Below are positions 20,790 through 24,726 of a stretch of 64,000 nucleotides of DNA, one piece after another; position 1 is the first letter of the stretch, and the number at the start of each line of letters is the position of its first letter. The translations under genes were made by a program, and so were the position numbers. The DNA lies in the NCBI GenBank assembly GCA_900113385.1, contig FOPE01000007.1:1-64000 (forward strand). Reading direction: 5' to 3'. The notes beneath the pieces are model-generated. The model ran no database searches. It had not been told where the DNA came from and worked only from the letters and a program-made list of their open reading frames with translations. This stretch comes from Lachnospiraceae bacterium C7. Lineage in GTDB: Bacteria; Bacillota; Clostridia; Lachnospirales; Lachnospiraceae.

Positions 20790-21773
20790 TTATACCTGCC
20801 CACGTTTTTTCATACGTATATCATCCCCAACAAGTTTGAAAATTGAGTAATTATTAGAAATTCTAGAAAAAGTACGTTCCGAATATGTATCTAAAATTTG
20901 TCTCATACCGAGGTTTGTTGAGATGATAGTAGATTTTTGACGTAAAAGTCTTTCGTTAACACACAAAAATAATTGTGAGTTAGTAAATGCGTTGGTCAAC
21001 TCAGTACCAAGATCATCGATAATAAGTAGATCGCAATCGAATATGCTTTTATTTGCTGCAATAGCCTCTGAATCTCGGCTAAAAACACCCTTAGACAAAA
21101 CTTCAAAAAGTTGAAATGAAGTAAAATAAATAACAGAATGTCCAGAGTCTAACAAAGCTTTAGCAATACAGTTAGACAAAAAAGTTTTGCCAACACCGGT
21201 ATCGCCAAAAAATAGAATATTAGAAGCTGAAGATTCAAAATTTTTTACAAAATCAATAGAATTTTCATAAGCATGTTCAGCAAGTGCATGTGCACTCAAA
21301 TTAGTAGTAGGGTCAATAATATCCTCAGAATAGTAACTCAAAGAAAAATTAGAAAAATTTTCTTTGGAGAGAATCTTTTTGATATTAGACTGAGAATAGA
21401 CTACATCAATGACCTCTTGTTTAAAGCAGTGGCACTGTTTGCCATTAATAAAACCAGTATCCTTGCAATCTTTACAAGTATAATCTGGTTCAAAATAATT
21501 CTCAGGGAAGTTGTATTCCTTGAGAAGATTTATACGTTCTTGGCGAAAGGCAGCTAATTTTTGTTTTAGTTCAGAAATAGCTGAAGAGTCACCAGCTAGA
21601 AGTTGTCTAGCAGATGCAACGGATGTTGACGCAATTGCATCGTCAATTTCCTTAAGGCGAGGTACTTTAATGTATGCCTCCTTTGTTTTTTTTTCGCTAG
21701 AGCGTTTGTTATTAAGTTGTTTTGCGTCGTAGCGGCGCATGATTTCATCATATTGTGCATTTGTAATTGGCAT
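20790..21773 (-). CDS. DnaC/DnaI-like helicase loader ATPase
   Basis: 327 residues. The N-terminal part is helical; residues 100-116 carry CKDCKDTG and CHC, a zinc site as in DnaI. The AAA+ core has Walker A GDTGVGKT at 190-197, Walker B LLIIDD at 249-254 and an arginine-rich C terminus. It is expected to load the replicative helicase. GAGGT precedes the ATG, and it follows the dnaD-like gene by 26 bases, so the two form an operon. Confidence 0.9.
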   Translation of the reverse strand: MPITNAQYDEIMRRYDAKQLNNKRSSEKKTKEAYIKVPRLKEIDDAIASTSVASARQLLAGDSSAISELKQKLAAFRQERINLLKEYNFPENYFEPDYTCKDCKDTGFINGKQCHCFKQEVIDVVYSQSNIKKILSKENFSNFSLSYYSEDIIDPTTNLSAHALAEHAYENSIDFVKNFESSASNILFFGDTGVGKTFLSNCIAKALLDSGHSVIYFTSFQLFEVLSKGVFSRDSEAIAANKSIFDCDLLIIDDLGTELTNAFTNSQLFLCVNERLLRQKSTIISTNLGMRQILDTYSERTFSRISNNYSIFKLVGDDIRMKKRGQV

Positions 21774-21799: not shown

Positions 21800-23068
21800 C
21801 TATTTTTTCTGAGACTTGATAGTGGTATTAAGTAAATACTGTTCAAGTTTGTCAGAATCATAGTTACGTTGATTGAAATTGTTAAATTTGTTGTTGACTT
21901 TAGTGCTAGTCTTTACTGGTTGAGCAGAATTTGATTGATTAGTTTCTTTAGAAACAAATTTTTTATTTCTATTAAAAGCTTTATCAAATTTTGCAATATC
22001 CTCTAAAGATTTAACATGATTTTTAAACCAACGAGTAAGAATAGAGTCAGTATATTCAAAACTAGGTTGGTGAGTGTTTTTAATAGTAATACGACAAGCC
22101 TCCTCAATCATAGGAAGATTATATCCGTAAGATTTAGTCCACTTGCGGATAAAATCATTTTCAGAAGATACAAGGTTGCGGCCTGAAATACCTAAAGCCT
22201 TCATAACACCGTAATGGAGTTTGCTGTGAGATTGAGACTCATGTTTAGCCATAGCAACAGTGGAAATTCCACGCTCATGCCATGCCAAAGCTACTTTGTC
22301 CATATATCGGATGCTAGAGTGATCTTTAGTAATGCAGTATTCTACCAAATATACGATAAGTTCAGTAGAAAATTTAAGTCCATCTACCCAATACAAAATA
22401 GTATTGATTTCTGTAGAATTCAGTTGACGTTTCATATATGTTTCGACAATAAAGAATAATTCTGAAATGTCAGGATCCTCAGTAAAATGAGTGACCTCAT
22501 CAGGGGTATAATCTCTTTTTGCAGGAACAGCCTTTGTTGTAGCATTAGCTTTATTAGCCGTCATGCTATTAGCCGCCATGCTATTATCTACCATATTAGT
22601 AGATGTTACGCCAGCATTCATGCCAACATTGTTGTTTAAAGAATTAGTAGCATTTATAGTGCTGTTAGTAGCGTTTGTAAGGCTGTTTGCCCCAACATTC
22701 ATGTGAACACTTTCATTATTATTAGAAAGAGAAGCAGAATTATTTTTATTACTCTCTTTTTGCTTATTATAAACCGGTAAAAGTCTAATCCCCACTATGT
22801 CTTTTCCGTTGTTGGAATAATCAAGACGTAGGAGCTTTACTTTTTCCCAATACTTTAAAGCTCTCAAAACGTCGTTTTCAGTTTGTTGAAAATAGTCTGC
22901 AATAATAGAAATAGAGCAGGCTGGCTCATTTGAGCTGATGCATTTCAAAATATATAGATAAATTTTTACAAATTCACCATTAGCTTCTGGCATGAACTTG
23001 TCGATAAAATAATTTGAAACACATGTTACGGCGTTGTTATTGTTGCTGTGTAATTGAATTAATGACAT
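21800..23068 (-). CDS. DnaD/DnaB-like replication initiation protein
   Basis: 422 residues. The N terminus (1-100) looks like a winged-helix domain. Residues 101-185 are a low-complexity Asn/Ser/Thr/Met linker with loosely repeated NAT and NSM units. From about 195 come DnaD-type helical domains, ending with YTDSILTRWF, the YxxxIxxxW motif of the family. The frame stays open upstream to 23161, but AGGAAGG lies just before the ATG at 23068. Paired with the loader gene, it should act in helicase loading. Confidence 0.88.
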   Translation of the reverse strand: MSLIQLHSNNNNAVTCVSNYFIDKFMPEANGEFVKIYLYILKCISSNEPACSISIIADYFQQTENDVLRALKYWEKVKLLRLDYSNNGKDIVGIRLLPVYNKQKESNKNNSASLSNNNESVHMNVGANSLTNATNSTINATNSLNNNVGMNAGVTSTNMVDNSMAANSMTANKANATTKAVPAKRDYTPDEVTHFTEDPDISELFFIVETYMKRQLNSTEINTILYWVDGLKFSTELIVYLVEYCITKDHSSIRYMDKVALAWHERGISTVAMAKHESQSHSKLHYGVMKALGISGRNLVSSENDFIRKWTKSYGYNLPMIEEACRITIKNTHQPSFEYTDSILTRWFKNHVKSLEDIAKFDKAFNRNKKFVSKETNQSNSAQPVKTSTKVNNKFNNFNQRNYDSDKLEQYLLNTTIKSQKK

Positions 23069-23099: not shown

Positions 23100-23128
23100 A
23101 TTATAGCATAGCAAAAATAAAAAGTGAA
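23100..23128 (-). promoter_or_regulatory. Promoter of dnaD-dnaC
   Basis: On the minus strand: TTCACT, a 17-base spacer and TATAAT preceded by TG (extended -10, TGCTATAAT). It lies about 32 bases before the dnaD start. Confidence 0.7.
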
Positions 23129-23174: not shown

Positions 23175-23345
23175 TGTGGATAATGTGGATAAAATTGTGG
23201 AAAAGAATTGGGATATGGTTCTATGCCTTGAGAATAAGGGATATTATCATGTTATATTTTTGTGTAGTTTTCCACATGAAAATAAAAAAAAATCCACATG
23301 CCATGAGAATAAATATTCACAATGACATGTGGATAATGTGGATAA
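23175..23345. promoter_or_regulatory. DnaA-box cluster
   Basis: Four perfect 9-base DnaA boxes (TTATCCACA, read here as TGTGGATAA) lie in two abutting pairs: 23175-23183 with 23184-23192, and 23328-23336 with 23337-23345. Between them are TGTGGAAAA (23196-23204, 8 of 9), TTTTCCACA (23268-23276, 8 of 9, opposite direction) and AAATCCACA (23290-23298, 7 of 9). The first pair is about 47 bases upstream of the dnaD -35; the second touches the murC stop codon. Confidence 0.9.
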
Positions 23346-23346
23346 G

Positions 23347-24726
23347 TTATTTACCAAGTAAATGTTCGCCGATTTCTACAACATTTCCGGCACCCATAGT
23401 TATCAACAAATCACCTTGTTGACAATTCTTTAATAAATATTTTTCAATCTCTTCAAAAGAAGGGAAGTAATGGCACTCAGTTCCATGAGCAACAACCTTT
23501 TCTAAAACATCCTTAGAAGAGATACCGATAGTATTTTTCTCACGAGCAGCGTAAATGTCAGCTAAAACAACCACATCAGCCATAGATAAAACATCACCAA
23601 AGTCCTCTAAAAAGGCCTTAGTACGAGAATAAGTATGAGGCTGGAATACAAGAACAAGTCTGTCATGTGGATAATTCTTAGCAGCAGTTAATGTCGCACG
23701 GATTTCAGTTGGGTGATGTGCATAATCATCAATAATAGTAACACCATCAACTTTACCTTTATATTCAAAACGTCTACCAGCGCCACCAAATTTAGATAAA
23801 CCACGAACAACCGCATCTTTGTCTAAATTAAGGTCATCACATAAAGCAATAGCTGCCATAGCATTAGAAACATTATGCATACCAGGAACGCTTAAAGTAA
23901 CGTCAAATAATTTCTCACCATTGTGCATAGCAGTAAATGAAGCACATGCTTTATCGTTAAAAGTAACGTTTTTAGCATAATACTCGCAAGAATCATTTAA
24001 ACCATAGCTAATAATCTGTTGAGGCATATCTTTTACAATTTCTTCGTAATTGTCAATTTCACCATTAATAATAGTAGCACCATGATCTAAAGTATTAGAA
24101 GCAAACTTTCTGAAAGAATGTCTAATATCATTAATATCCTTAAAGAAATCAAGATGTTCAGCTTCAATATTTAAAATAATGCTGTATCTTGGACGGAAAT
24201 TTAAAAAGCTGTTTGTGTATTCACAAGCCTCGGCAATGAAAACATCAGAATTACCAAGTCTTAAATTGCTACCGATAGCTGGGAAAATACCACCTACAGA
24301 AATAGTAGGATCAGCCTTAGCTTCAAGCAAAATTTGGCTAATCATAGAAGTTGTAGTAGTTTTTCCGTGAGTACCTGCAACAGCAATTGATTTAGCAAAT
24401 TGATCCATAATCTGACCTAAAAGCTCGGCACGAGAGAGCATAGGGAGATTAGCCTCTTTAGCTGCAACAAATTCAGGGTTGTCTTCGCTGATAGCAGCAG
24501 TATAAACAACAACATCCATATCTTTAGAAATGTTGTCAGCAGCCTGAGGATAAGAAACCTTAATTCCCTTAGCAACTAAAGCGCGTGTATAATCAGATTC
24601 CTTCATATCAGAACCAGAAACCTTAAAATCTTTATCAAATAAAATTTCAGCAAGAGCGCTCATGCTGACACCGCCAATACCAATGAAGTGTACATGTACT
24701 GGCATATTGAAATTTATTTCATACAT
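23347..24726 (-). CDS. murC: UDP-N-acetylmuramate--L-alanine ligase
   Basis: 459 residues. It adds L-Ala to UDP-MurNAc in the cytoplasm, the first peptide step of peptidoglycan synthesis. It has a Rossmann start (HFIGIGGVSMSALAEIL), the ATP loop AVAGTHGKTTTTSM and the family motif DDYAHHPTEI. GGAAGG precedes the ATG. It stands alone, upstream of the replication genes on the same strand. Confidence 0.97.
   Translation of the reverse strand: MYEINFNMPVHVHFIGIGGVSMSALAEILFDKDFKVSGSDMKESDYTRALVAKGIKVSYPQAADNISKDMDVVVYTAAISEDNPEFVAAKEANLPMLSRAELLGQIMDQFAKSIAVAGTHGKTTTTSMISQILLEAKADPTISVGGIFPAIGSNLRLGNSDVFIAEACEYTNSFLNFRPRYSIILNIEAEHLDFFKDINDIRHSFRKFASNTLDHGATIINGEIDNYEEIVKDMPQQIISYGLNDSCEYYAKNVTFNDKACASFTAMHNGEKLFDVTLSVPGMHNVSNAMAAIALCDDLNLDKDAVVRGLSKFGGAGRRFEYKGKVDGVTIIDDYAHHPTEIRATLTAAKNYPHDRLVLVFQPHTYSRTKAFLEDFGDVLSMADVVVLADIYAAREKNTIGISSKDVLEKVVAHGTECHYFPSFEEIEKYLLKNCQQGDLLITMGAGNVVEIGEHLLGK

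Follow-up and report, generated by a model that had tools for sequence, protein, structure and literature searches.

The region between murC and a dnaD-like/dnaC(dnaI)-like gene pair carries two abutting pairs of perfect DnaA boxes, and this element is conserved among relatives of the same family, which are mostly Lachnospiraceae by record titles. These strictly spaced binding sites for DnaA, the protein that starts chromosome replication, suggest that the initiator also controls the supply of its own partners, the genes that load the replicative helicase. The element was found in a 64,000-nucleotide stretch of contig FOPE01000007.1 of Lachnospiraceae bacterium C7 (GCA_900113385.1), hereafter the window, where a sequence-only reading had described the four boxes, three weaker boxes between them and their unusual 9-base phasing, and had proposed regulation of the loader genes or, alternatively, titration of DnaA. 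We confirmed the boxes at these positions and found regulation to be supported, with the following parts.

23347..24726, minus strand: murC, the upstream gene (TIGR01082, 496.6 bits, over its cut-off)
23328..23345, minus strand: array 1, two abutting perfect DnaA boxes (23328-23336 and 23337-23345), starting one base after the murC stop codon
23292..23334, minus strand: predicted hairpin, in which box 2 of array 1 pairs with the inverted arm, a putative murC terminator stem
23290..23298, plus strand: inverted weak box AAATCCACA, the 3' arm of the hairpin (TGTGGAT on the minus strand)
23284..23292, minus strand: T-run after the hairpin
23268..23276, plus strand: weak inverted box TTTTCCACA
23196..23204, minus strand: weak box TTTTCCACA, just upstream of array 2
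23175..23192, minus strand: array 2, two abutting perfect DnaA boxes (23175-23183 and 23184-23192), nearer to the promoter
23100..23128, minus strand: predicted dnaD promoter, TTCACT, 17 bp, extended -10 TGCTATAAT
21800..23068, minus strand: dnaD-like gene with two PF07261 (DnaB_2) stretches
20790..21773, minus strand: dnaC/dnaI-like AAA+ helicase-loader gene (NF005304, 384.4 bits, over its cut-off; IstB and DnaA ATPase domains)

The four perfect boxes (TTATCCACA) point in the direction of dnaD transcription, and the starts of the two pairs are 153 bases apart. A first-order Markov estimate gives 0.73 single perfect boxes per 64 kb, with five seen, but only 4e-6 abutting pairs, with two seen. 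Over the whole genome single TTATNCACA is not enriched, with 158 occurrences against 158 for the reversed control; however, same-strand pairs with a gap of 0-15 occur three times in 2.84 Mb, two of them here, against 0 for the reversed control. The fifth perfect box of the window (23666-23674, minus strand) and a TTATGCACA (23717-23725, minus strand) lie inside murC, and some relatives have boxes at about the same distance, perhaps only through coding constraint. The dnaD start is most likely the ATG at 23068. The term dnaD-like is fair, since the only solved relative by sequence is DnaD (8ojj_A, E 4.8e-6), although the protein has two PF07261 stretches.

To evaluate conservation, we read 210 loci, namely, 100 from the family, 30 from the genus (one being the window) and 80 retained from 572 named relatives, whose titles are mostly Lachnospiraceae genera. 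The loader gene matches in 120 of 120 family genomes; besides the window's own genome, the loci left out were two too near a contig end, one with a partial hit, one without a real hit and 15 from mostly divergent genomes, so the sample leans to closer relatives. The genus loci came from 57 genomes with a dnaD match, of 60. Three loci lacked a recognisable murC or dnaD and in one the genes overlap, which gave 206 usable murC-dnaD gaps, 190 after 16 near-duplicates were dropped, and 184 after six gaps under 100 bp were set apart. Of these 184 gaps, all hold a box with at most one mismatch pointing at dnaD, 173 a perfect one, 166 an abutting pair (at most two mismatches in 18), 148 array 1 within 45 nt of the murC stop, and 110 both arrays. 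Perfect boxes number 452 towards dnaD and 17 away, with 0.4 towards dnaD expected from shuffles. Named two-array examples are Anaerobium acetethylicum, Blautia parvula, Lachnotalea glycerini and [Clostridium] symbiosum. Genome-wide, and thus not only at dnaD, the exact abutting 18-mer is present in 69 of 120 family genomes (reversed control 0), and with one mismatch in 330 of 397 (reversed control in 9 of 397). The 9-base phasing is also conserved: in 119 gaps, which are the family and genus loci alone without two duplicates, there are 195 same-strand box pairs at distance 9, against 9 at distance 8, 0 at 10, 5 at 11 and 27 at 12.

We then applied one identical test to 40 loci from other families of the class, chosen by hand from 196 genomes, one per family except one family twice, all with a hit over the cut-off and two of them of the same order. 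By this criterion, 2 of 40 hold an abutting pair, against 85 of 100 family loci. One of the two has a pair towards dnaD with a further perfect box about 60-70 bp before it, whereas the other has a weak pair pointing away. The device is thus characteristic of this family but perhaps not confined to it. Within the family there are also exceptions, as 18 of 184 gaps have no abutting pair and 74 lack the two-array form. Some branches, for example Muricomes intestini and Mediterraneibacter massiliensis, have a compact form with boxes at 0, (9) and 23, no hairpin arm, and the -10 at 52-53. Of the seven loci whose gaps are under 100 bp or whose genes overlap, six have no perfect box.

Three further features were missed, or only partly described, by the sequence-only reading. 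First, the upstream array is built into what looks like the terminator of murC. Array 1 begins 0-3 bases after the murC stop codon in 93 of the 111 loci that have a pair, out of 119 examined, and the motif TGTGGAT follows 46-49 nt from its start in 104 of 110 two-array loci. In 100 of those 104 this motif pairs with box 2 of array 1 in the predicted fold, with a mean z of -6.9 against base-shuffled sequences, and most have a T-rich stretch after it. For the window, the predicted fold has -21.1 kcal/mol and a z of -6.3 against dinucleotide shuffles, and the third weak box is the 3' arm of this hairpin; a consensus terminator scan found none, because it allows loops of 3-8 only. In the spacers, TTCGACA (complement TGTCGAA, possibly the Spo0A box) is enriched (in 24 of 110 two-array loci, about 24 seen against 1 expected), which may point to a link with sporulation control, whereas TTTACATAA, of unknown function, occurs in 35 of 110, mostly about 59-74 nt from array 1, after the hairpin T-run.

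Second, the distance between the two arrays is quantised. Array-to-array distances cluster at about 87, 99, 110, 121, 142, 153, 166 and 175, with a best period of 11.2 bp (R = 0.644, n = 110). The largest value in 5000 smoothed nulls is 0.306, and the distances from either array to the start codon and the gap length give only 0.174, 0.141 and 0.18. It could be argued that this phasing is an artefact of choosing among boxes 9 bp apart, but unambiguous subsets, with exactly one pair per array, give R 0.62-0.80, and differences of 10, 11 and 22 are not multiples of 9. Shared ancestry alone was likewise rejected by disjoint nearest-neighbour contrasts: in 55 pairs the differences are 0-3 (26), 8-12 (11), 21-23 (7) and 35-87 (11), with none at 4-7 or 13-20, and of 10,000 jittered sets 0.02% reached the observed score. 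The period matches the in vivo helical repeat of 10.95-11.60 bp fitted for lac loops (PMC1762422).

Third, an extended -10 promoter with a poor -35 lies at preferred distances from the nearer array. In 102 of 110 two-array loci the best promoter lies downstream of array 2, and in four it lies between the arrays. Of these 110 loci, 13 have no promoter over the score used (at least 12); in the remaining 97, the -10 is TG-extended in 95 and the -35 is mostly TTCTCA/TTCTCT-like. After dropping two distances over 130, the -10 lies within 1 bp of 49, 59, 69 or 79 from the last box in 87 of 95 loci (R = 0.908 at 10.1 bp; maximum of 40 shuffled sets 0.29; -10 to start codon 0.126), and nearest-neighbour differences are 0-3 in 29, 8-12 in 12, 18-20 in 5 and 38 in 1 of 47 pairs. 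The window has its -10 69 bp from array 2. However, the shorter period of the promoter distance is not explained, the compact form does not fit the 49/59/69/79 rule, and loci without two arrays give only R 0.468 at 9.1 bp.

The simplest reading of these results is a DnaA-responsive control region for the helicase-loader operon, which we hold with reasonable confidence. DnaA would bind cooperatively to both box pairs, which sit on the same face of the helix and would be bridged into a loop of about 150 bp, while the nearer pair, held at a stereospecific distance from a weak promoter, would most likely activate it from upstream in a class-I-like geometry. The terminator would insulate the operon from murC, making it depend on its own DnaA-controlled promoter. 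In the absence of binding or expression data, binding, looping and direction are inferred from sequence, conservation and spacing: regulation of the operon by DnaA is very likely, a bridged complex is probable, and activation is more likely than not.

The best surviving alternative, although unlikely, is that the same complex represses the operon, by keeping RNA polymerase from the promoter or trapping it until DnaA is drawn away to new origins. Indeed, B. subtilis DnaA appears to repress several promoters (PMC4447404), and loops may often serve repression; yet the arrays lie upstream of the -35 without overlapping the promoter, and the poor -35 and extended -10 fit an activated promoter better. 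It is still less likely that array 1 is only a terminator repeat and array 2 alone regulates: box 2 of array 1 does form the hairpin stem in most predicted folds, but box 1 and the first two bases of box 2 lie outside it and yet match the box, albeit in loci selected for a match, and array 1 is helically phased to array 2. A datA- or DARS-like titration or conversion site that only happens to lie here would agree with up to five strong and several weak boxes in about 170 bp, anchored to murC as much as to dnaD, but titration needs neither fixed distances to a promoter nor helical phasing, and the boxes point one way. Finally, a second or former replication origin is very improbable, since, although two arrays with AT-rich DNA between them resemble a small bipartite origin, dnaA lies on another contig with its own cluster of imperfect boxes, GC skew stays positive on both sides (low over the inverted genes), and a promoter phased to the arrays is conserved instead.

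DnaA is already known as a transcription factor. In B. subtilis, sda is activated and ywlC and others are apparently repressed from box clusters outside oriC, but the eight strong in vitro regions do not include dnaD, dnaB or dnaI, and neither helical phasing nor terminator overlap appeared in what we examined (PMC4447404). In Caulobacter, predicted DnaA boxes lie upstream of the replicative helicase gene dnaB, in a regulon with dnaQ, so control of replication genes by DnaA is not new, although this is the helicase rather than its loader and no two-array geometry was seen described (PMC8203912). E. coli DnaA needs pairs of same-direction boxes with a gap of 2-3 bp, where one extra base pair abolishes binding (PMC11317965; direction from the tandem motif used there), whereas the boxes here abut. 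Compared with lac/ara repression loops, and with the looped arrays that bipartite oriC may form, the two arrays here also share one helical face, but the promoter lies outside the loop and the site is not at dnaA. In E. coli asnC, where a DnaA/DnaA-box complex blocks RNA polymerase, a DnaA box likewise lies at the end of a transcript, whereas here a box is itself the arm of a predicted RNA hairpin with a T-run. We found no description of this target and geometry, of DnaA helical phasing, or of DnaA and hpf, in the literature searched, which included PMC7561715 and PMC13326638 but not most subscription papers or two B. subtilis DnaA-regulon studies (PMC5607098, PMC1193544), so that priority cannot be excluded.

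Abutting pairs also occur at other sites. Of 20 picked by hand elsewhere, 10 lie upstream of hpf, the ribosome hibernation factor, next to secA in several (one verified as PF02482 + PF16321, the others recognised by eye), three near dnaA, and seven elsewhere, three of these beside secreted NlpC/P60 (cell-wall hydrolase) genes. hpf matches in 114 of 120 family genomes, and of 30 hpf loci 19 have a pair; where two pairs occur they are 97 bp apart in six and 75 in one. However, hpf pairs show no promoter rule, and the window's genome has no such site at hpf by the strict pattern. Near dnaA in three relatives, chosen because they have an abutting pair there, pitches of 9 and 11-12 both occur, and in the window's genome only 11 and 22. 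Dense clusters with pitches of 9, 11 and 12 mixed were noted in two loci, in one of them on both sides of dnaA, and on one contig of a sampled genome.

It is tempting to speculate, although only tentatively, that the element is part of a family-wide homeostatic circuit, in which DnaA bridges the two arrays into a supercoiling-sensitive loop and switches on the genes of DnaD and the helicase loader. DnaD, which in B. subtilis inhibits cooperative DnaA binding, would then dismantle the complex and close the feedback. In this scenario, one stretch of about 55 bp would work both as DnaA site and as RNA terminator hairpin, and the spacing variation across the family would be a natural record of the in vivo helical repeat in these bacteria.

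In our judgement, how bacteria match helicase-loader supply to initiator activity is little known outside a few model species. Our results predict, for a major family of gut bacteria, that DnaA directly controls its loaders through a geometrically strict promoter. They show a pairing grammar without a gap, different from the 2-3 bp gap of E. coli, and give a motif for finding the DnaA regulon of these bacteria, where hpf appears to be another target.
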